Under the pieces are notes generated by a model. That model made no database searches. It saw only the letters and a list, made by a program, of their open reading frames with translations, and was not told the DNA's origin. From positions 419,459-483,458 of the forward strand of contig NZ_LR701493.1 in assembly GCF_902498785.1 (NCBI RefSeq): a stretch of 64,000 nt of DNA, written 5' to 3'. Source of the stretch: Sphingomonas sp. EC-HK361 (GTDB taxonomy: Bacteria; Pseudomonadota; Alphaproteobacteria; Sphingomonadales; Sphingomonadaceae). The position numbers were made by a program, and so were the translations under genes. Positions 43,447 through 60,344 of this stretch are shown piece after piece. How positions within the stretch are numbered: the stretch's first letter is position 1; each line of letters opens with the position of its first letter.

Positions 43447-43533
43447 GCGGTCGTGGCGGAACTGGTAGACGCGCAACGTTGAGGTCGTTGTGGCCGAAAG
43501 GCCGTGGAAGTTCGAGTCTTCTCGACCGCACCA
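43447..43533 (+). tRNA. tRNA-Leu (GAG anticodon)
   Basis: An 87-nt tRNA with a long variable arm. The acceptor stem GCGGTCG pairs with CGACCGC; the anticodon stem CAACG/CGTTG holds the loop TTGAGGT with anticodon GAG; the variable arm is TGGCCGAAAGGCCGT; the T arm contains GTTCGAGTC. The CCA end is encoded. It reads CUC and CUU leucine codons. Confidence 0.95.
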
Positions 43534-43984: not shown

Positions 43985-44908
43985 TCACGGCGTCGCAGAA
44001 AGCTCGTCATGCGCGACGCGTTGCAACGCGACCGCATCCCTAGGTGAGATGCCGAGTTCGTCGGCGGCGCGCTCGGCGGCACCGAGCGACATCGGGTCAC
44101 GCCCGGTGATCCGCCCGAAGACGACCAGCGCCTCGAGATAATAGCCGTGGATGCTGGCGTGATATTGGTCGTAGGTCCACAGATCGACCTGGCCGTAGCT
44201 GATGCCGTCATACGGATCGGGGTCCGCCACGCCCGTCGCGAACGCGCGGTTCCAGGCCTGTCCCACCGGCAGGACGCCCGCGACCGCCGGCGTTGCGGCG
44301 CGGGCACGATCGGCGGCGGCGCGCAGGTCGGTCGCCATCACGCTGACCGGCTGGCGATACCAGTGGCCGGTCGGGCGATAGGTTTCGTCGGCGCGGGTCC
44401 AGGTCGCCATCAGTTCGATCCGCACCGCCGGATTGCGCGCGGTGAACAGCCGCGCCAGGCGGCCGACATCAGCGATATAGTCGGTGTCGTCGCCGGGCTT
44501 CTTGCGGTTGAGCGTGCTCAGCTCCTGCAGCACCACCACGTCCCACGCCCGGTCGAGGCGCTGCCGCCGCTCGTCATAGTGGAAGCCCAGCGTTTTGCCG
44601 CCCTGCGTCTCCAGGCTGACGGCGTAGTCGAGTCCCGCTTCCTCGGTGAAGGTCTTGAACAGCGCGGGCACCCCGCCATAGCCATCGCCATTGAGGTCGG
44701 TCACGCTCGCGGCGTGCCAGTTGCGCACCGCCGAATGCGCGCCCTGGGTGAAGCTGTTGCCGACGAACAGGATCGTGCGGGCCGGGGCCGCGACACCAGG
44801 AGCGGCGATCGGCGGGACGGCCGGCGGGACGGCCGGCGCGTCCTGGGCGGTCGCCGGGGTCGCAATGGTCAGCGCGATGGCGATCAGCGGGATATGGCGC
44901 CAGTTCAT
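43985..44908 (-). CDS. Periplasmic SGNH/GDSL-type hydrolase
   Basis: A 307-residue exported hydrolase. The signal peptide (IALTIATPATA) ends near residue 21, followed by a Pro/Ala linker. Block I is TILFVGNSFTQG with likely nucleophile Ser52; the terminal block is TYDQYHASIHG with Asp247 and His250. DVVVLQELSTLNRKK fits the middle block. It resembles DUF4886-type SGNH proteins and should cleave an ester or similar bond in the periplasm. The start ATG shares one base with the stop of the TonB receptor gene, so the two are translationally coupled. The substrate is unknown. Confidence 0.82.
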   Translation of the reverse strand: MNWRHIPLIAIALTIATPATAQDAPAVPPAVPPIAAPGVAAPARTILFVGNSFTQGAHSAVRNWHAASVTDLNGDGYGGVPALFKTFTEEAGLDYAVSLETQGGKTLGFHYDERRQRLDRAWDVVVLQELSTLNRKKPGDDTDYIADVGRLARLFTARNPAVRIELMATWTRADETYRPTGHWYRQPVSVMATDLRAAADRARAATPAVAGVLPVGQAWNRAFATGVADPDPYDGISYGQVDLWTYDQYHASIHGYYLEALVVFGRITGRDPMSLGAAERAADELGISPRDAVALQRVAHDELSATP

Positions 44909-47900
44909 CAGAAGTTCTTCCCGACCGTCAGATACCAATAGCGGCCATAGGGCACATAGAGCGAGCCCAGATACCCGTCGGCGACCACCGGCGGTTCCTT
45001 GTCGAACAGGTTGCGCGCGCCGATGCGGAAGCGGGTGCCGTCCATGAAGGTCCCTTTCACCCGGTATTGCGCGTAGAGATTGAAGGTCGTCGTCCCCGCG
45101 ACCGGATAGGGGTTGCCGTCGGTATCGAGGAAGTTGGTGTCGTCGACCGGGCCGATATAGTTGGCGAATGCGCCCACCTGCCACTGCTTCTGCGACCAGG
45201 TCAGCGATCCCGTGACGCGCCACTTCGGCCGGCCGCGATCCTCGATCAGGTCGCTCGCGTCGGTCAGCGGGGTGGCGGCATTGATCTGCCCCGCCGCACG
45301 CGCGTCGAACAGCGCCTGTACCGCGGGCGGCGTATCGCGGCTGAACTTGGTCAGCCGCGCGGCGTTGATTGCCAGGTCGAATTTTCCGATGTCGGTGCGC
45401 ACATTATAGAGCAGCGCCAGATCGATGCCCTGCACGGTCTGCGGCAGCAGGTTGGTGAACTGGTCGTTGATCTGCAGCACCGCTCCTGCCGGCGCAAGCC
45501 CGGTGCCGGCGAAGGCGGGGGTGTCGTCCGCAGTCGGCGCGGCGCGGATCACGTTGGGGTTGCTCGATCCCTGCAGCCGCAGCAGATAGTCGAGCACCAG
45601 CGCGTTCTGCGGCCCGAACTGGCCGACGATGCCGACCTGCTTGATCGACCAGAAATCCGCGGTCAGTGTCAGCCGGCCATACTCGCTGGGGATGAAGCCC
45701 GGCTGGATGACGGTGCCGACCGTCCAGTTGGTGCTGTTCTCGGGCTTCAGGTCGCGGTTGCCTGCGATCGCGATCTGGTAGCTCACCCCGCGGCCGCACG
45801 CGCTGAAGGTGCTGATCCGACCGGCGCGCAGATCGGCCTCGCACGCATAATAATCGGTGTTCGATCCCAGCCGCGAATAGCGCGTGGTGTTGACCTGTTC
45901 GAGGTTCGGCGCGCGGAACCCCTGCGAAGCGGAGGCGCGCAGGCGAAACCCGTCGACGAGATCCCAGGCGATCGCGACCTTGGGCTTCGCGACCGATCCG
46001 AAGTCGCTGTAATGCTCGTAGCGGCCCGCGATCTGCATATCGATTCTGTGAACGAGCGGAATGCCCATATCGGGCGACACGACCGGCAGCGCGATCTCGG
46101 AGAAGGCCGAAAACACGGTGCGCGCGCCGAACGAGCTCGGCGTCGGGCTGACCGCGGCGACGTTGGACAGATTGGTTTCGCCCGTCACCAGATCGGTGAA
46201 GGTGATGTCGCCGTTGAGATTGGGATCACGGATGTCCGCCTGCGTCTCGCGCCGCCCTTCGACGCCGAACGCGAAGCCGACATGTCCCGCGGGCACCGCG
46301 ATCAGCCGCGCGTTCGACAGCTTGAAATCGCCGAGGAACAGCGTCGTGCGGTCCTTGCGCCGCAGCCGGAACTGGAAGGCGTCGATCGTCTGCTGGCTGG
46401 CCACGGAGCAATCCCCCAGCGACGGGGTCGCCGAACAGCCGCCCGAGAACGGGTTGTATGCATTGGGCGTCGAGAGCGCGAGGTTCTTCTGGAACGCGGT
46501 CATGTCGATCGCGTTCGAATCGTCGGTCGCCTGCGCCGCAGTGTAGAGCAGCGCGCTGTCGAAATCGAAGCTGCCGAGCTTGCCCTTCACCCCGCCGAGG
46601 AACCGCGACTGCCAGTTGGTGACATCGACCAGCTGCTTGCCCGCATCGACGAAGCGGTAGGTGGACAGGCGCACGGGTAGCCCCGCCGCGGGGACGTTGG
46701 TCAGACCGGGGATACGGTTTGGGTTGAGCGATCCGTCCGCGAAGCGGGTCGGGCCGAACGGGTTCCAGTAGTTCGAGGCCGGGATGACGATCGCATTGAG
46801 GTTGATCGTCGGCGGCTGCATACGGTGGGTGTCCGCCCGGTAATAGCCGAGCTCGGTGTAGAAGGTCACCGCGTCGCTGACGTCGTAATGCGCCGTCAGG
46901 AAGGTGTTGTAGCGGTTGAACGACGGCGTGACGGTGGTGCCGGGGCGGGTATCGAACCGCTCCGAGCGCAGCGTCGAGGCGGTCGCGCGGGTTCCGGTGC
47001 CGTAACAGACGTTGGAATTGACCGTGAAGGCGCAACCCGGATTTGCCGCCGACTGGGTGTGGAAGGCGCCGGCGGACGAGGTCACCGCGCGGGTGCCCAT
47101 GCGGATCGTGCCGGGGCCGCCGACCACCGCCAGGTTCGCCCAGGGCGACTGGGTCGCGCGGCCGTCGGGGACGAGGCTGGAGGCGTAAGCGGGGTTGTCC
47201 GCGAAGAAGGACAGTAGGTTGTCGGACGCCGTATAGGGCTCATCCGAGGCCAGCTGTGCGGTGCGCCGGGTATAATCGAGGAAGATGGAGACGTTGCCGC
47301 GCCCGTCCGCGAAATTCGTCCCCGCAGTGCCGGTGACCTGCAGCTCCTTGCGGTGGGTGCCCTCGGCAAAGCCGAACCGGTAGTTGAGGCTGGCGCCGTC
47401 GAAATCCGATTTGGTCACCGTGTTGACCACGCCCGCGACCGCATCGGCGCCGTAGATCGCGGCGGCGCCATCGCGCAGGATTTCCAGTCGCTCGATCCCC
47501 GCGACCGGCAGCGCATTGGAATTATAGCCGAGCACCGGCACGTTGCCGTCGCCTGCCTGACTGGTGGGATGCTGGACGAGGCGGCGGCCGTTGAGCAGCA
47601 CCAGCGTGTTGCCGACCCCCAAATTGCGCAGGTTGATAGAATTGACGTCGCCGCGCGCCGCGTTCGAGGTCTGCGGGTTGTTCGCCTCGTTGAAGGTCAC
47701 GTCGCCGGCTTGCGGGATCGACCGGAACAGTTCGTCGCCCGAGACCGTGCCGGTCGCGTCGATCTGCGCCTGATCGATGACCGACACCGGCAGCGCGGCA
47801 CTGGTGCTCGCGCCCTTGATCTGGCTGCCGACGACGACGATGTCCGCGGCAGCCTCCGGGGCCTGCGCTGCGGTGTCGGGGTCGGCGTTCGCCTGCGGTG

Positions 47901-48027
47901 TCGCCTGGGCCAGGCCGGGAACGGCTTCGGCGCGCGGCGCGGGCGTCTGCGTTTGGGCCTGGGCCTGGCCCGCGATCAGTGCCGCGAGCGCGCTGCCGGT
48001 GGCAAGCGCAAGGCGTGCGTTGGTCAT
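44908..48027 (-). CDS. TonB-dependent outer-membrane receptor
   Basis: A 1039-residue receptor. A signal peptide (ALATGSALAALIAGQAQA) is followed by a low-complexity linker and a TonB-box-like DIVVVGSQ. The plug domain runs about 75-190 (LPVSVIDQAQIDATG, INLRNLGVGNTLVLLNGRRL, RLEILRDGAAAIYGADAVAGVVN). The remaining 850 residues form the beta barrel, ending in aromatic-rich GRYWYLTVGKNF. It imports a large or scarce ligand using TonB energy. ATG 48027 has GGGAG seven bases upstream; ATG 48033 would overlap the dctA stop but its spacing is too short. Confidence 0.93.
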   Translation of the reverse strand: MTNARLALATGSALAALIAGQAQAQTQTPAPRAEAVPGLAQATPQANADPDTAAQAPEAAADIVVVGSQIKGASTSAALPVSVIDQAQIDATGTVSGDELFRSIPQAGDVTFNEANNPQTSNAARGDVNSINLRNLGVGNTLVLLNGRRLVQHPTSQAGDGNVPVLGYNSNALPVAGIERLEILRDGAAAIYGADAVAGVVNTVTKSDFDGASLNYRFGFAEGTHRKELQVTGTAGTNFADGRGNVSIFLDYTRRTAQLASDEPYTASDNLLSFFADNPAYASSLVPDGRATQSPWANLAVVGGPGTIRMGTRAVTSSAGAFHTQSAANPGCAFTVNSNVCYGTGTRATASTLRSERFDTRPGTTVTPSFNRYNTFLTAHYDVSDAVTFYTELGYYRADTHRMQPPTINLNAIVIPASNYWNPFGPTRFADGSLNPNRIPGLTNVPAAGLPVRLSTYRFVDAGKQLVDVTNWQSRFLGGVKGKLGSFDFDSALLYTAAQATDDSNAIDMTAFQKNLALSTPNAYNPFSGGCSATPSLGDCSVASQQTIDAFQFRLRRKDRTTLFLGDFKLSNARLIAVPAGHVGFAFGVEGRRETQADIRDPNLNGDITFTDLVTGETNLSNVAAVSPTPSSFGARTVFSAFSEIALPVVSPDMGIPLVHRIDMQIAGRYEHYSDFGSVAKPKVAIAWDLVDGFRLRASASQGFRAPNLEQVNTTRYSRLGSNTDYYACEADLRAGRISTFSACGRGVSYQIAIAGNRDLKPENSTNWTVGTVIQPGFIPSEYGRLTLTADFWSIKQVGIVGQFGPQNALVLDYLLRLQGSSNPNVIRAAPTADDTPAFAGTGLAPAGAVLQINDQFTNLLPQTVQGIDLALLYNVRTDIGKFDLAINAARLTKFSRDTPPAVQALFDARAAGQINAATPLTDASDLIEDRGRPKWRVTGSLTWSQKQWQVGAFANYIGPVDDTNFLDTDGNPYPVAGTTTFNLYAQYRVKGTFMDGTRFRIGARNLFDKEPPVVADGYLGSLYVPYGRYWYLTVGKNF

Positions 48028-48029
48028 CG

Positions 48030-49370
48030 TCATTCTCCCTGCATGGTGGTCAGCGGGGCCGTGTCGGCGAAGCGTGCCGCCGGCCCTCTGTGGTGAAGCG
48101 TCGCGTCGAGGCGCGCGCGGTCGAGCTTGCCTTCCCAGCGCGCGACGACGATTCCCGCCACCGCATTGCCGATGAAGTTGGTCAGGCTGCGGCATTCGCT
48201 CATGAACCGGTCGACGCCGAGGATCAGCGCCATGCCCGCCACAGGGACGGAAGGCACGATCGACAGCGTCGCGGCCAGCGTGATGAATCCCGCGCCTGTC
48301 ACCCCGGCCGCGCCCTTGGACGAGAGCATAGCGACGCCGAGGAGGAGCAGCTCCTGCCCGAGCGTGAGGTCCACGTTGCAAGCCTGCGCGATGAACAGAG
48401 CGGCAAGGGTCATGTAGATGTTGGTGCCGTCGAGGTTGAACGAATAGCCGGTGGGCACGACCAGCCCGACGACCCCGCGGTCGCATCCCGCGGCTTCCAG
48501 CTTGACGATCAGATTGGGCAGCGCCGCCTCGGACGAGGAGGTGCCGAGGACGAGCAGCAGCTCGGCCTTGAGATACAGGATGAGGCGGATGATCGAAAAG
48601 CCGTGCAGCCGCGCGACCGCGCCCAGCACGACCAGCACGAACAGCAGCGAGGTGAGATAGAAGGTCGCGACGAGTCCGCCGAGGTTGACGAGGCTCCCCG
48701 CGCCATATTTGCCCACCGTGAACGCGATCGCACCGAACGCGCCGACCGGGGCGGCGCGCATCAGGATGCCGGTCAGGCGGAACACGATTTTGCCGGTCCG
48801 ATCGATCAGGTCGAGCACTGGCTGCGCGGGTTCGCCCACCAGGCTGATCGAGATTCCGACCAGGATCGCGACGACCAGCACCTGCAGGATATTGCCCTGG
48901 ATCAGCGCCGAAACCAGCGTATCGGGGATCATCGCGAGCGCGAAACCGACCAGCGTCGTCTCGTGCGCCTGATGCGCATAGTCGGCGACCGCGCCCGGAT
49001 CCAGCGTAGCGGGGTCGATGTTCATCCCCGCGCCGGGCTGCACGGTGTTGGCGACGATCAGCCCCACCACCAGCGCGAGCGTGGAGAACAGCAGGAAATA
49101 GCCCAGCGCCTTCGCGGCGACGCGCCCGACGGTGCGCAGCTCGCGCATCCCGGCGATGCCGCTGACGAGGGTGAGGAAGATGACCGGCGCGATGACCATC
49201 TTCACCAGCTTGATGAAGGCGTCGCCCAGCGGCTTCAGCGCCTCGCCCGCCGCGGGGTAGAAATGGCCGACCAGCGCGCCCGCAACGATCGCCGCGAGCA
49301 CCTGCACATAGAGGTGATGATAGAATGGCCGGGGCCCGGCGATGGCCGGCTGATCCGCGTCGGGCGTCAT
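48030..49370 (-). CDS. dctA: C4-dicarboxylate/H+ (or Na+) symporter DctA
   Basis: A 446-residue DAACS-family carrier with eight helices and two re-entrant hairpins. The serine-rich hairpin reads [14 protein letters not shown], and the substrate/cation site is [16 protein letters not shown]. DctA imports succinate, fumarate, malate and related acids across the inner membrane. It overlaps or abuts the TonB receptor gene downstream and faces the divergent dctB gene. I looked for but did not find a good -24/-12 sigma-54 promoter in the shared intergenic region. Confidence 0.94.
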
Positions 49371-49551
49371 GTCCTCTCCCCCGCACCTCTGTCATCCGAG
49401 GTTGCGGCTGTTAGCCTAGCCGCCGTCGGGCGATGTTCCAGTCGCTCACCTGGATTCTTGCAAGAGACTGAAAAGTCGTGATTAAGCACCATAATAGCGG
49501 CGTGGGATGCGCGGCGCAGGAGCACGGCACGCCTTCCCATCCTCCTAAAAG

Positions 49552-49569
49552 TGTGTGGTAATCCACACA
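49552..49569. promoter_or_regulatory. Perfect dyad overlapping the dctB start codon
   Basis: TGTGTGG at 49552-49558 and CCACACA at 49563-49569 form a perfect inverted repeat around TAAT. The last A is the first base of the dctB ATG. An operator for a dimeric regulator, such as the neighbouring DctD-like protein, is plausible. An RNA hairpin at the start codon is an alternative. Confidence 0.5.
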
Positions 49570-51335
49570 TGTTCGCGTGGCGCCGAATCGTCCTGGTCCT
49601 GCTCGCCGCCGCCGCCGTCGGCGCGCTCGCGCTCGCGGGACTGCGCTGGGCCGGGACGCGGGCGGAGCGGGTCGCCGATATCGGCGCCGCATCGATCGCA
49701 AGGACGCATGCCGGGCTGCTTGAAAGCGAATTGCAGAAGTTTCGCCTGCTGCCACTCGTCCTGACCGAATATCCCGGTGTCTCGACGGTGCTCGCCGGGG
49801 ACGACCCGGCGGCGGCAGCCCGGCTCGACCGCACGCTGCAGTCGCTCGCTGGCCGCACCGACGCCGCGGTGCTCTACGTGATCGATCGCAGCGGGCGCAC
49901 ACTGGCGGCGAGCAACTGGCGCTTGCCGAGCAGCTTCGTCGGCCAGAATTACGGCTTTCGCCCCTATTTTCTCGACGCGATGCGCAGCGGGTCTGCAGAG
50001 CTTTTTGCGCTCGGCACCGTCAGCGGCCGGCCGGGTCTCTACCTCGCACGGCGGGTGGACCGGGACGGCAAGGCGCTTGGCGTCATCGTGGTCAAGGTGG
50101 AGTTCGACACACTGGAGGCGAACTGGGCGCGGTCGAGCGGCATCAGCCTGCTGACCGATCGACACGGGGTGATCCTCATCACCAGCCGTCCGGCCTGGCG
50201 CTTTGGCGCGATCCACGCGCTGGACTCCACGACGATCGCCGACGCGCGAAGAACGCTTCAGTTCGGGCCCCGGCCACCCCGTCGTGCACCGGTCACGATC
50301 AAGGGCGCGACCGCGACCGTCGATGGCGCGCTGACCGAACGGTTTCGCGCTGCCGCCGTGCCATCGAGCCTGCGGGGCGCCCGGTTGATCCACCTCGCGC
50401 CGCTCGCGCCGCCGCTCGCTGCCGCGCGGCTGCAGGTCCTGATCTGGGCGTTGTGCATGCTCATCGTCGCCGGCATCGCGAGCGGCGTCGTGATCCGCGC
50501 CGCCGATCGCCGTCGTCTCCACAGGATCGCGCACGAGGCGCTGGAACGCGAGGTCGCGCATCGCACCGCGGAACTGCGCGAGACGAATGCGCGCCTGGTG
50601 ATCGAATCGGAAGAACGGCTGGCCGCGGACCATCGCTACCGAGCCGCGCGCGAAGAGCTGGCACAGGCCAGCCGGCTGGGATCGCTCGGCCAGATCACTG
50701 CGGGCGTGGCGCATGAGATCAACCAGCCGGTTGCGGCCATCCGCGCCTTTGCCGAGAACGGGCAGGCGATGCTCGCCGGGGGCGCAACAGACGATGCGAA
50801 GGTCAATCTCGCCCGGATCGTGGCGCTCACCGAACGCGTCGGGGCGATCACCGGCGAACTGCGCGCCTTCGTCCGCCGGCGCAAGGCGGATGTCACCGCG
50901 GTGCCGTTCGGTGCGGTGATCGACGGGTTGTTCCTGCTGATGGGCGAGCGCGTGCGCGGCCTCCTGACGCTCGATCTGCCGCCGGCGCTGAAGGCAGCGT
51001 GCGTGGTCGGCGACCGCATCCGCCTCGAACAGATATTGGTGAACCTGGTCCAGAACGCACTCGACGCGGCGGGGGACCGCCCCGGCATCGCGATCACCTG
51101 TGCGGTGCGCCAGGACGATGCGCATCTGCTCGTCAACGTCAACGACAATGGACCAGGCATCGATCCCGCGGTTCGCGCGACGCTGTTCGATCCGTTCGTC
51201 TCCGGGCGCGAAGACGGCCTCGGACTCGGGCTGGCGATCGCGCGGGACATCGCGCGCGGCTTCGGTGGGGAATTGGCGCTGCATGAGGGCCCCGGCGGCG
51301 GCGCGTCCTTCCTGTTGACGCTGAAACGCGCATGA
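49569..51335 (+). CDS. dctB: DctB-type sensor histidine kinase
   Basis: A 588-residue membrane kinase. A first transmembrane helix (about 6-24) and a second (about 288-308) enclose a periplasmic double-PAS sensor like that of DctB (VLYVIDRSGRTLAASN, GQNYGFRPYFLDAM, GLYLARRV). A cytoplasmic coiled coil precedes the HisKA block GVAHEINQPVAAIRAF with His382, then N-box QNALDAAGD and G-boxes NDNGPGID and GLGLGLAIARD. It should sense C4-dicarboxylates. ATG 49569 is chosen over GTG 49551. Its stop overlaps dctD by four bases. Confidence 0.92.
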   Translation: MFAWRRIVLVLLAAAAVGALALAGLRWAGTRAERVADIGAASIARTHAGLLESELQKFRLLPLVLTEYPGVSTVLAGDDPAAAARLDRTLQSLAGRTDAAVLYVIDRSGRTLAASNWRLPSSFVGQNYGFRPYFLDAMRSGSAELFALGTVSGRPGLYLARRVDRDGKALGVIVVKVEFDTLEANWARSSGISLLTDRHGVILITSRPAWRFGAIHALDSTTIADARRTLQFGPRPPRRAPVTIKGATATVDGALTERFRAAAVPSSLRGARLIHLAPLAPPLAAARLQVLIWALCMLIVAGIASGVVIRAADRRRLHRIAHEALEREVAHRTAELRETNARLVIESEERLAADHRYRAAREELAQASRLGSLGQITAGVAHEINQPVAAIRAFAENGQAMLAGGATDDAKVNLARIVALTERVGAITGELRAFVRRRKADVTAVPFGAVIDGLFLLMGERVRGLLTLDLPPALKAACVVGDRIRLEQILVNLVQNALDAAGDRPGIAITCAVRQDDAHLLVNVNDNGPGIDPAVRATLFDPFVSGREDGLGLGLAIARDIARGFGGELALHEGPGGGASFLLTLKRA

Positions 51336-52660
51336 CGGGCAGCGCATCCCGCCTGGAGATCATCCTGATCGAGGACGATCACGATCTGCGACTGGCGACC
51401 GCGCAGTCCTTCGGGCTGGCCGGATTTAACGTTCGCGCCTTTGCCGGGGCCGAGGCTGCGCTCGCGCTGGCCACCCCAAGTTTCGAAGGCGTGGTCGTGT
51501 CCGATATCCGCATGCCACGGATGGATGGCTTTCAGCTGCTATCGGCCGTCCGCGCGGTTGATCCTGAGGTGCCCGTGATCCTCATCACCGGCCACGGCGA
51601 CGTGCCGATGGCGGTCGCGGCGATGAAGGAGGGCGCGTATGATTTTCTCACCAAGCCCTTTTCGGTGGATCACCTGACGCTTGCGGTCTCCCGCGCGCTC
51701 GAGCGGCGGCGGTTGGTCATCGAGAACCGCCAGTTGCGCGCCGTGGCCGAGGCGGGTGAAGCGGCTAGCCCGCTGATCGGTAACAGTCGGGCGATCACCC
51801 AGTTGCGTGCGCAGATCCAGCGCCTCGCACAGGCCAGTATCGACGTGCTGATCGAAGGCGAGACCGGGACCGGCAAGGAACTCGCCGCGCTCATGCTGCA
51901 CCGGCAGGGGCCGCGTCGGCAAAAGCCCTTCGTTGCGATCGACTGTCCGACGCTGGACGATGCCACCGCCGCGATCGAATTGTTCGGCCATGCCGCTGAC
52001 GTCGTCCCGCACACCCGGCTCGCGCGCACCGGGCTCATCGTGGAGGCGAACGGCGGCACGCTGCTGCTCGACGACATCGACGCGCTATCGCCGGACCTGC
52101 AGACGAAACTGCTCCGCGTGATCGAAGAACGCGAGGTTCACCCTCTGGGAGCACCGCGCCCCGAAGCCGTGACCATCCGCATCATCGCCACCTCAAAATC
52201 CGATCTGCGGGCGAGCGTTGATCGCGATGGCTTTCGCGCCGACCTATATCATCGTCTTGCAACGACCCATTTGCGGCTACCGCCGCTTCGCGAGCGGGAG
52301 AGCGATGCGATGATCCTATACGCCATCTTTGTCGAACAGGCGAAGGCGCAGCTCGGACGACCCGATCACGTCATCGGCGATGCCGAGCGGCGCCATGTCC
52401 TGGCATATGAATGGCCCGGAAATGTCCGCGAGCTGCGCAACTACGCGTTCGGAACCCTCCTCGGCGACATGGCCGTCTTGCCGGATGACACGGATTTGCG
52501 AGGACGTGTCGCGGCATTCGAAAAGCAGCTGATCAGCAACGCGCTCAAAGCGACAAAAGGCAATGTCTCGGCCGCTATCAAAGAACTGAAAATTCCAAGG
52601 AAAACCTTTTACGAGAAGGTCGGCAGGCTCTCGATCGATCCTGCATCGTTCCGACCATGA
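51332..52660 (+). CDS. dctD: DctD-like NtrC-family response regulator lacking GAFTGA
   Basis: A 442-residue protein. Receiver domain: Asp15/16, phospho-acceptor Asp58 in VVVSDIRMP, Lys108. AAA+ domain: Walker A GETGTGKE at 176-183, Walker B-like LLLDDID at 244-250, then LYHRLATTHLRLPPLRER. The Fis-type helix-turn-helix is at the C-terminus (GNVSAAIKELKIPRKTFYEKV). After ELFGH (216-220) the usual GAFTGA loop is missing, replaced by AADVVPHTRLARTG, and the Walker B Glu is Asp. It may therefore not activate sigma-54. It is coupled to dctB by a four-base overlap. Confidence 0.9.
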   Translation: MTGSASRLEIILIEDDHDLRLATAQSFGLAGFNVRAFAGAEAALALATPSFEGVVVSDIRMPRMDGFQLLSAVRAVDPEVPVILITGHGDVPMAVAAMKEGAYDFLTKPFSVDHLTLAVSRALERRRLVIENRQLRAVAEAGEAASPLIGNSRAITQLRAQIQRLAQASIDVLIEGETGTGKELAALMLHRQGPRRQKPFVAIDCPTLDDATAAIELFGHAADVVPHTRLARTGLIVEANGGTLLLDDIDALSPDLQTKLLRVIEEREVHPLGAPRPEAVTIRIIATSKSDLRASVDRDGFRADLYHRLATTHLRLPPLRERESDAMILYAIFVEQAKAQLGRPDHVIGDAERRHVLAYEWPGNVRELRNYAFGTLLGDMAVLPDDTDLRGRVAAFEKQLISNALKATKGNVSAAIKELKIPRKTFYEKVGRLSIDPASFRP

Positions 52661-52685: not shown

Positions 52686-54740
52686 TCAAACGGAAAGCTC
52701 GGGATTCCCCTCGAGCACTCGCTGCTCCAGCTTCGGCGGCACTCCCGGCCGCCACATGTTGGCGCGGTGCGAAACGCGGTATCGCAGGGGGCCGCCGTCG
52801 GGTGTTGCAGCGCGCGCGATCGGGCGGGCGATGCAGACGAATTCGGTGTCGATGGAATCCGGTCCGGCGGTAACCACGGCATAGCCGTGACCGGCCATAT
52901 CGACGAACTCCAGATGTGGCGCGACATCGGGATTGGTGACCGCGCGCGCCTTTGCGATATCGCCGCTCGCCGCATATTCGAGCGCACTGCGCACCCCGCG
53001 CTTGATCGTGAGGTTGATCGTATGCTCGGGCGCGGCGCCCGCCGTCTTGCGGACGAAGAGCGGCAGCAGCGGGGACGCCTTCCTATATTCCGCCGCTTCG
53101 CCGAGACCGGGCGCCGAGATCGAACCGGTGATGAAGCTGATCCCGACCGGCGCGAATCCTTCGGGCGGCAGTGCCGGCGCGGCATAGCCGGCCCAGAAGC
53201 TGTGACGATCGCCCGAGACGGTGACGAACCCCGACACCTTGTGATCGCGGACCAGGTCGTAGATTTCCGCCCGCTCGCTGAACGCGCCGCTGAAGTCGCC
53301 GCCGCCGAATGTGCCGAACCCCTTGCCGGGCCACGCCGCCTTGACCAGGCCGGCGGGCAGATTCTGCGGGTCGGTCCGCATGTCGAGCGTCCCGTTGGTC
53401 GCGCCCCAGATCTTCCAGGTTGCGGTCGATTCAGTCAGTTGCGCCTTTAGCCATGCCTTCTGCTCGCGTCCGAGCACGGTGTAGGCGGGCTCGTCCTTGC
53501 GATAATTAGGGATGGTCCTGTCGCCGATCGCAATGGTCGCGGGTGGCTTGCCGCCGGCATAATCCTTGCCGCCATCGACGATCTCCATCCACTCCTGCGG
53601 GATGACCGGGAACTCGCCCGCATCGAGCGCCGCTGCTTCCGGCCGGTCCGTCGGGTCTTCCATCTTGTAGCTGTGAAGGTCGGTCAGGACGAGCTCGACG
53701 TGCCGGCCGTATCGAAGCGCGCGATAAGCGGTCATGCTGCCGACCGCGGCGCGGTTATTGGCCTCGGTGCCGAACCCGTGATCGTCGAACGCGTCGATCG
53801 GCGCCTTTGACACCGCGGGCGGTCCGAACTGCTCGAAACCCGGCCCCGATGCCTTGCGGACGCGCGACGGGATATACTCCCACCACGCCTGGTTGGCGGC
53901 GACACGCAGCGGCTGTGCTGGTTCGACCGTTTCGCCATATTTGATGAAGCTCTGCCAGCCCTGCCACGAGAATTCGTGATTGTCGCCGATACACACGAAG
54001 GGAAAGCGGGCCCGTGCGTTCTGGATATCGGGATCGTCGATATGCGCACGATAGACGTGGCGGTAGCCGGCGAGATTCGTCGGCACATGGAAATTGCCGA
54101 CCTTGCGGGCGTCAGGAATGTGGCCGAGGTCGTAGACGGTGCGCGCGTAGCGATGCGGCACCTCTTCGGGATATTCGACCACTTCGTAGATGAAGTCCCC
54201 GAGATGGAGCACGAATCCGAGGTTGCGGTCGACGGGCGCGCGCTCGTCTTCCCAGATCATCCGGCGATAGGCGTTCTGCGCGCCTTCGTTGACGCTGTTG
54301 CACGAAACGAACGCGAAGCGGACCGGACGCGGATCGGTGATGCGCGGCGCGGTGATCGTTCGCCCCACCCGGCTGCCCGCGCCGCTATCGTCGGTGAAGC
54401 GATACCAGTAGGTCGTTGCCGGCAAGAGTCCGCCGACAAGCACGCGGCATGTCCAGTCAGCGGCCGCCAGCACGGGCGCGTGCGCCTTTGCCACGACGCG
54501 GCGGAAATCCGGATCGCGCGCGACCTCCACCGCAAGCTCGTGCCGGTCGCCCGCATCGAACGGTCGCCGGGTCCACAGCACGACACTGTGCTCGTCCGGG
54601 TCACCCGACGCGACGCCTTGAGGATACAGCGCGCGATCCTCGTGCGGGTCGAGGCGCGACTCGGCAGCGGCCGATCGCGCAGCCCAGACCGCGAACAGTC
54701 CGAGTGACGCGGCGTTGGCCAGAAACTGCCGTCGTTCCAT
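52686..54740 (-). CDS. phoD: PhoD-type alkaline phosphatase/phosphodiesterase
   Basis: A 684-residue exported metallophosphoesterase. The N-terminus MERRQFLANAASLGLFAVWA is a Tat-type signal (RRQFL). PhoD blocks include YPQGVASGDPDEHSVVLWTRR, RFAFVSCNS, LHLGDFIYEV, CIGDNHEFSWQG and the late VSGDRHSFWAG. PhoD cleaves phosphomonoesters and diesters in the periplasm with Ca2+ and Fe3+. At 684 residues it is longer than B. subtilis PhoD. GGAG lies seven bases before the ATG. It converges on dctD with 25 bp between stops. Confidence 0.9.
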   Translation of the reverse strand: MERRQFLANAASLGLFAVWAARSAAAESRLDPHEDRALYPQGVASGDPDEHSVVLWTRRPFDAGDRHELAVEVARDPDFRRVVAKAHAPVLAAADWTCRVLVGGLLPATTYWYRFTDDSGAGSRVGRTITAPRITDPRPVRFAFVSCNSVNEGAQNAYRRMIWEDERAPVDRNLGFVLHLGDFIYEVVEYPEEVPHRYARTVYDLGHIPDARKVGNFHVPTNLAGYRHVYRAHIDDPDIQNARARFPFVCIGDNHEFSWQGWQSFIKYGETVEPAQPLRVAANQAWWEYIPSRVRKASGPGFEQFGPPAVSKAPIDAFDDHGFGTEANNRAAVGSMTAYRALRYGRHVELVLTDLHSYKMEDPTDRPEAAALDAGEFPVIPQEWMEIVDGGKDYAGGKPPATIAIGDRTIPNYRKDEPAYTVLGREQKAWLKAQLTESTATWKIWGATNGTLDMRTDPQNLPAGLVKAAWPGKGFGTFGGGDFSGAFSERAEIYDLVRDHKVSGFVTVSGDRHSFWAGYAAPALPPEGFAPVGISFITGSISAPGLGEAAEYRKASPLLPLFVRKTAGAAPEHTINLTIKRGVRSALEYAASGDIAKARAVTNPDVAPHLEFVDMAGHGYAVVTAGPDSIDTEFVCIARPIARAATPDGGPLRYRVSHRANMWRPGVPPKLEQRVLEGNPELSV

Positions 54741-58910: not shown

Positions 58911-60344
58911 ATGGGGTCGAGCAGACCGGCGCGTGTGCGCGCCGTCATCGGGGGTGCGCTCACCTTTGCGCTGATGGCGTGTGCTGGCGAGGCGAAGGAA
59001 CGGCCGAAAGCCGCGTCGGATACCAGCCCACCCGCCGCCGAACGCCGCTACGATCGCGATCCCTTTCCGTCGACCTATCACGCCTATCCCGGCGTCCCGA
59101 CGCTCTTGCGCGGCGCGACGATCTACGACGGGGAGGGTGGTCGGATCGAGCGCGGCTCGGTGCTCTTCGCGGACGGGAAGATCGTGGCGGTCGGTGCCGA
59201 TGTGCAGGCGCCGGCGGGTGCGACCGTCATCGACGGCACCGGGCTGTGGGTCACCCCCGGCGTCATCGATATACACAGCCACCTCGGTGATTACCCCTCG
59301 CCGGGCATCCGCGCGCTGTCCGATGGCAACGAGGCGACTGCCCCCGCGACCCCGGAAGTGTGGGCGGAACACAGCGTCTGGCCGCAGGACCCCGGCTTTT
59401 CACGCGCGCTCGCCAATGGCGGGGTAACCACGCTCCAGATCCTGCCCGGCTCCGCGAACCTCTTCGGCGGGCGCTCGGTCATCCTGAAGAACGTCTATGC
59501 CCGCACGGCGCAGGGGATGAAGTTCCCTGGCGCGCCTTATGGCCTCAAGATGGCGTGCGGCGAGAATCCGAAGCGTGTCTATGGCGGCAAGGGCCGCGCG
59601 CCCTCGACCCGAATGGGCAATATCGCGGTCGATCGCCAGACCTGGGCGAAGGCGGTCGAGTATCGTCGCAAATGGATGAAATACGAAAAGGACGGCGGCG
59701 ATCCGCCCGCGCGCGACATCGCTATGGATACGCTGCGCGGCGTGCTCGATGGCGACATCCTCGTCCAGAACCACTGCTACCGCGCCGACGAGATGGCCAA
59801 CGTCCTCGATATGGCGAAGGAGTTCGGGTACAAGGTCACCGCGTTCCACCACGCGGTCGAGGCGTACAAGATCGCCGATCTGCTGAAGGCCACCGGCACC
59901 TGCGCTGCGGTGTGGGCGGACTGGTATGGCTTCAAGATGGAAAGCTATGACGGCGTCGGCGCCAACCTCGCGCTGCTCCAGAAGGCGGGGGCGTGCGCGA
60001 TGATCCATTCCGACGACGAGAACGGCATCCAGCGGCTCAATCAGGAGGTCGCGAAGGCGCAGGCATCGGGTCGCCGTGTCGGGATCGACATCCCCGATGC
60101 GGTCGCGTGGGAATGGTTGTCGATCAATCCGGCGAAAGCGCTGGGCATCGCCGACAAGACGGGCAGCCTCAAGCCCGGCAAGATGGCGGACGTGGTGCTG
60201 TGGAACGGCAATCCGCTGAGCGTCTATACGCGGCCGGCCAAGGTCTGGGTCGACGGCGCGCTGCTCTATGATGCGACCGACCCGTCGCGGCGCCCCGTGT
60301 CCGATTTCGAGCTTGGCCAGCCCGGGCAGGGAGACGTGAAGTGA
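58911..60344 (+). CDS. Exported amidohydrolase, metal ligands intact
   Basis: A 477-residue amidohydrolase-superfamily protein with a lipoprotein-like signal (LTFALMACAG). Metal and catalytic ligands are present: VIDIHSHLGD (HxH), VQNHCYR, TAFHHAVEAYK and MIHSDDENG (late Asp). The C-terminus PGKMADVVLWNGNPLSVYT is typical of the imidazolonepropionase/dihydroorotase-like group. The substrate is unknown. Its stop overlaps the next gene's GTG start, so the two proteins are made together and may form a complex. Confidence 0.88.
   Translation: MGSSRPARVRAVIGGALTFALMACAGEAKERPKAASDTSPPAAERRYDRDPFPSTYHAYPGVPTLLRGATIYDGEGGRIERGSVLFADGKIVAVGADVQAPAGATVIDGTGLWVTPGVIDIHSHLGDYPSPGIRALSDGNEATAPATPEVWAEHSVWPQDPGFSRALANGGVTTLQILPGSANLFGGRSVILKNVYARTAQGMKFPGAPYGLKMACGENPKRVYGGKGRAPSTRMGNIAVDRQTWAKAVEYRRKWMKYEKDGGDPPARDIAMDTLRGVLDGDILVQNHCYRADEMANVLDMAKEFGYKVTAFHHAVEAYKIADLLKATGTCAAVWADWYGFKMESYDGVGANLALLQKAGACAMIHSDDENGIQRLNQEVAKAQASGRRVGIDIPDAVAWEWLSINPAKALGIADKTGSLKPGKMADVVLWNGNPLSVYTRPAKVWVDGALLYDATDPSRRPVSDFELGQPGQGDVK

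Follow-up and report, generated by a model that had tools for sequence, protein, structure and literature searches.

In the rhizobial DctABD system, dctA lies divergent from the dctB-dctD pair. Loci that combine a receptor, an enzyme and a symporter are well known for sugars, and polyaspartate hydrolases have attracted study as degraders of a synthetic polymer; the PDB structures 6ve6 (PahZ1) and 7ljh (PahZ2) come from Sphingomonas sp. KT-1. DdvT of Sphingobium SYK-6 is a sphingomonad TonB receptor devoted to a carbon source and not to iron, B12 or sugar, as is proposed for the receptor described below; its substrate is a lignin-derived biphenyl compound, thus aromatic, and the available part of that paper (PMC6874591) names no dctA, DctBD or periplasmic hydrolase. 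Loci with a TBDT are also described near a cyanophycinase in Citromicrobium and adjoining a D-aminoacylase in NOR5-3 (PMC3400609), where the context links the transporter to breakdown of an amino-acid polymer or an N-acyl-D-amino acid; dctA and DctBD are not named in the accessible text of that source. Bacteria that use malate polymer as a carbon source are known, and the 43-kDa outer-membrane polymalate hydrolase of Comamonas acidovorans is reported to be without serine-esterase activity, which sets it apart from SGNH enzymes, as these use serine; its gene is unnamed in the available portion of the source (PMC9210645). Among the open-licence PubMed Central papers listed in our searches we saw no DctBD-linked receptor, enzyme and symporter locus that feeds C4 acids, and there was no match for polymalate with TonB, or for TonB-dependent with dctA, dctB and dctD.

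The locus considered here lies within a 64-kb stretch of DNA (the window) and consists of dctA, a TonB receptor gene and an SGNH hydrolase gene placed head to tail, with dctB-dctD divergent from them (Table 1). The gene set and the packed or near-overlapping gene ends of the original prediction were confirmed by coordinates and domain matches, with a spacing of +2 nt from dctA to the receptor and -1 nt from the receptor to the hydrolase; the dctB end overlaps dctD by 4 nt. The divergent arrangement resembles that of rhizobial DctABD, to which the window adds the receptor and the hydrolase. A tRNA-Leu (gag) at 43447-43533 (+ strand) flanks the operon on its 3′ side, a PhoD-like phosphatase gene (52686-54740) is convergent with dctD, and 59061-60296 gives weak and incomplete amidohydrolase-like matches, at best 38% over 70 residues.

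Table 1. Features of the dct locus, in window coordinates
Feature	Coordinates	Strand	Evidence
Putatively exported SGNH hydrolase, Pfam DUF4886, 307 aa	43985..44908	-	profile, alignment, fold; signal peptide judged by eye only
TonB-dependent receptor of 1039 aa with plug (77-200) and barrel (488-1007)	44908..48027	-	domain profiles
dctA, SDF-family C4-dicarboxylate symporter, 446 aa	48030..49370	-	SDF domain and NCBIfam model
Divergent intergenic region dctA/dctB	49371..49550	.	promoter pattern scans
dctB, sensor kinase; its periplasmic dCache domain closely resembles DctB sensor domains of known structure	49551..51335	+	domain and PDB match
dctD, response regulator; receiver and AAA+ domains, GAFTGA absent	51332..52660	+	domain profiles, motif check

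DctA scores 648.6 bits against NCBIfam NF002461 (cut-off 513) and 567 bits against a second DctA model, NF009587, just below its cut-off of 570. The dCache sensor of DctB is related to the DctB structures 2zbb and 3e4o (E 1e-52 for the latter), as in the rhizobial system, and its stretch FR-x-Y ... G-x-x-S is conserved in 41 of 41 aligned rows. The AAA+ domain of DctD is of the sigma-54-interaction type, and GAFTGA is the sigma-54 contact motif that defines sigma-54 activators. This contact loop is absent from the window's DctD, a difference from rhizobial DctABD, and none of 40 DctD rows has an exact GAFTGA, the nearest loops being GAFSGA (L121) and GAFPGA (L029). All 37 genomes examined possess an RpoN domain. 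With the single pattern used, no sigma-54-like site was found in 15 intergenic stretches, the dctA/dctB region of the window included; that region holds one sigma-70-like match, no more than shuffled sequence gives, and the promoter and terminator scan stayed at chance level. The lack of GAFTGA together with the lack of a sigma-54-like site suggests that DctD may control the locus independently of sigma-54.

The locus is probably a DctBD-controlled module for the capture, periplasmic cleavage and uptake of a larger molecule containing a C4 acid. Here, the TonB receptor would carry a molecule with a C4 dicarboxylate (or aspartate) in it across the outer membrane, the SGNH serine hydrolase would cut it in the periplasm, and DctA would import the released acid. 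DctB, through its DctB-type sensor domain, would sense the released product and raise expression of the operon, whose three genes are presumably cotranscribed.

The hydrolase passes the cut-off of the DUF4886 profile and carries a Ser and an Asp-x-x-His. Across 26 aligned rows (the window and 25 relatives, L011 and L013 omitted), Ser52 and His250 never vary and Asp247 hardly does. A predicted structure model adopts the SGNH fold with a solved DUF4886 protein as its best match, and the fold neighbours named for an activity are mostly esterases; the best hit of a PDB sequence search reached only E 0.62. No known activity is listed for DUF4886 in the available part of a 2022 review (PMC9487903). 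In the hydrolase tree the dct-linked hydrolases cluster, yet do not form one clade. Relatives elsewhere adjoin a GH3 glycosidase and a sugar transporter, 5-oxoprolinase, M28 peptidases, a sodium-alanine symporter and other genes. A genome with a window-type locus (G001) has a second DUF4886-type hydrolase near 5-oxoprolinase, DUF969, DUF979 and DUF2891 genes (L128). Two host assignments look doubtful: the hydrolase of L021, recorded as Microvirga, is almost identical to that of L023 from Sphingomonas, and that of L022, from a metagenome bin recorded as Klebsiella, groups with gammaproteobacterial bins.

A scan of the genome collection with the hydrolase reached 26 loci, ten of which (L001-L008, L010 and L025, including eight from Sphingomonas and one from Sphingosinithalassobacter) hold all five genes in the order of the window (dctD, dctB, dctA, receptor, hydrolase). 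L009 has dctA and the hydrolase with no receptor match. Neither dctA nor a window-type receptor is present in the available DNA, some of it in short stretches, of the remaining 15, at least one of which (L016) is close to a different type of receptor. These loci yield no rate, as they were mostly selected through the hydrolase. The same five genes in the same order occur in L027-L030, and L108 shows dctB, dctA, an esterase, porin O/P, the receptor and an SGNH gene, where dctD would lie past the fetched end. In 14 window-type loci a possible start for the receptor lies at most 71 nt from the stop of dctA, and one for the hydrolase at most 5 nt from that of the receptor; the relatives' genes were called with a home-made ORF finder and tblastn, so these ends are approximate.

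Rates can be taken from a sample of 249 genomes from the family to which G001 belongs; G001, the sample centre, was itself reached through the hydrolase. The hydrolase is found in 21 genomes (23 places); at E 1e-150 or better dctA is found in 93 (95 places) and the receptor in 42 (45 places). Among the 44 receptor places read (G148, on a short contig, was omitted), 24 have dctA within 5.5 kb (G001 included), eight have a gene of a second SDF group and 12 have neither. All six places that were reached receptor-first with at least 56% identity (G001, G218, G168, G141, G533 and G281) adjoin dctA; at 54% (G599, L110) no dctA was seen. At least 26 of the 95 dctA places carry a receptor of the window superfamily (22 from sample-wide dctA and receptor searches, plus G135, G180, G227 and G033); the other 69 were not seen with one, a soft absence, since the receptor searches scored the best two or three candidates per genome. 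In 20 of these 69 that were read there was no match to such a receptor, and dctB is adjacent in four of them. The expectation that receptor and hydrolase recur beside dctA in relatives is thus borne out in part: tight recurrence together with dctBD is observed, and on the receptor side the link to dctA is consistent among close relatives, but many dctA and hydrolase places lack the arrangement, and on the hydrolase side the family sample speaks against the expectation, with five of 23 hydrolase places by dctA and 18 away from it.

The dctA-linked receptors are scattered in a quick receptor tree, where the dctA label needs seven changes, at least six of them forced (starred branches), and a single clade for them was rejected on an earlier 74-row tree (p-AU 8e-44). 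Their position on separate branches and the rejection of one clade indicate that the pairing with dctA recurs by gain or loss, although some long branches near the root of these quick trees are unsure. L150 was left out of the quick receptor tree for its in-frame stop, and L087-L107 were left out of trees as short copies. A structure prediction of the receptor was dropped as too poor (pLDDT 46.9).

Sister loci keep dctA and the receptor, and mostly dctBD, but exchange the hydrolase. Among 40 dctA-linked receptor rows, a recognised hydrolase match lies nearby in 39 and dctB in 37, compared with dctB in four of the 20 sampled dctA loci that lack this receptor. An SGNH enzyme is present in 16 rows, in one of them together with an alpha/beta esterase; these are the window, ten loci of the hydrolase search, L030 (also reached by that search) and the receptor-first loci L027, L028, L029 and L108. 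Another 19 rows have an alpha/beta esterase, joined by M14 in 17, two of which also hold PahZ1 and PahZ2. PahZ1 without an esterase is found in four rows (three with M14), and L109 shows a weak tannase-like match only, below cut-off. A 41st locus, L150, comprises dctA, the receptor with a stop in its stretch, M14, PahZ1 and dctBD.

Window and Pah loci are alike in that PahZ1 and PahZ2 homologues accompany dctA and a receptor in the sister loci, and in L121 PahZ1 sits exactly where the window has its hydrolase; they differ in that the window has the SGNH enzyme and neither Pah homologue. Relatives of PahZ1 match 6ve6 at E 5e-67 (L041), 4e-75 (L121) and 8e-59 (L148), and the PahZ2-like half in L044 matches 7ljh at E 3e-89; PahZ1-like matches occur in L041, L051, L107 and L121. 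In L044:11686-13857 and L049:2598-4742 the PahZ1-like and PahZ2-like (M20) parts share one reading frame. PahZ1 homologues are found in 19 of the 249 family genomes (20 places), with a window-superfamily receptor nearby at eight places and not at 12, and dctA nearby at six and not at 14. They are also found in eight of 275 genomes of the class, one of which (G054) is in the family sample as well; L148 and L149 were reached through PahZ1.

That the five genes are adjacent yet functionally separate is highly improbable. Such a reading would draw on the 69 dctA places, out of 95, at which no member of the receptor family was seen; however, an SDF gene stands by 32 of 44 receptor places as against one of 132 other plug domains, and the dctA pairing recurs on separate receptor branches. 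The background figure was counted by eye in five genomes, of which only the background is informative, these having been picked for holding a dctA-linked receptor: of their 137 plug domains, six are no more than 5.5 kb away from an SDF gene, and five of the six are window-family receptors. Two other plugs fall just outside the limit (G218 at 5.8 kb, G141 at 5.54 kb), and in an eight-genome list at least two more receptors outside this family, in G004 and G261, have an SDF gene within 5.5 kb. It is also very unlikely that the receptor imports a metal chelate (dicarboxylate- or siderophore-bound metal) with dctA as a bystander. The closest PDB sequences to its plug are siderophore and B12 receptors, yet the receptor is repeatedly linked to SDF symporters, hydrolases and DctBD.

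Two further alternatives keep the genes together and change the substrate. The ligand may be an amide polymer or aspartate peptide (polyaspartate, beta-aspartyl peptides), for which the SGNH enzyme would serve as an amidase or by a side activity and DctA would import aspartate. We regard this as unlikely, although PahZ1 and PahZ2 homologues and M14 carboxypeptidases stand in sister dctA-receptor loci, and the locus L030 (G135) bridges the two types, as its hydrolase shares 75% identity with that of the window (264 residues) and its receptor 72% (977 residues) with that of the PahZ1 locus L148. The L030 combination equally counts in favour of the main reading. Against it, the 64-kb window contains no PahZ1, PahZ2, M14 or alpha/beta-esterase homologue at E 1e-3, and esterases prevail among the activity-named fold neighbours of the hydrolase. 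A comparably low probability is given to the processing of an acylated sugar or phenolic, of which the released C4 acid would be just one of two products. This would suit the GH3 glycosidases and sugar transporter beside other members of the hydrolase family, and the alpha/beta esterase of the sister loci gives sub-cut-off matches to models of pectin and xylan acetylesterases. However, DctA is the sole transporter and DctB and DctD are the sole regulators among the five genes, and no sugar gene was identified among the seven genes scanned.

For a module that releases a C4 acid for DctA, the most likely ligand would be an ester-joined C4-acid oligomer, polymer or conjugate, because homologues of polyaspartate hydrolases occupy a comparable position in the sister loci. 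By analogy these loci hint at an acidic polymer as food; we infer the ester bond, and they point as much to amide-linked aspartate polymers. Polymalate is the ester counterpart of beta-linked polyaspartate. That relationship, with polymalate-using bacteria being known (PMC9210645, available part), makes polymalate an attractive guess, but the Comamonas enzyme is reported to show no serine-esterase activity. More broadly, and as a rather doubtful proposal, sphingomonads may possess a family of such modules in which PahZ1/PahZ2-type enzymes cut aspartate polymers and window-type DUF4886 enzymes cut a malate polyester or a similar C4-acid ester, which, if true, would give DUF4886 its first activity. 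If the locus is read correctly, it assigns a receptor clade a class of substrates that can be tested, gives a first clue to what DUF4886 enzymes do and places polyaspartate hydrolases in a genetic context.

Members of the receptor superfamily also adjoin the second SDF group, which scores highest against the models for DctA (261 bits) and GltP (253 bits), in each case below cut-off, and once a DASS-type symporter (L123). Other neighbours are amidohydrolases whose best match is PRK09061, the NCBIfam model of D-glutamate deacylase, as well as genes resembling D-amino acid dehydrogenase and gamma-glutamyltransferase; several of the matches fall below the NCBIfam cut-offs. In L053-L056, L063-L066, L115 and L145 the receptor superfamily is accompanied by varied sets of the second SDF symporter, M14 and the PRK09061-like amidohydrolase, along with D-amino acid dehydrogenase-like or gamma-glutamyltransferase-like genes in various sets, and judged by gene content these loci look as if they might serve D- or gamma-linked glutamate conjugates.
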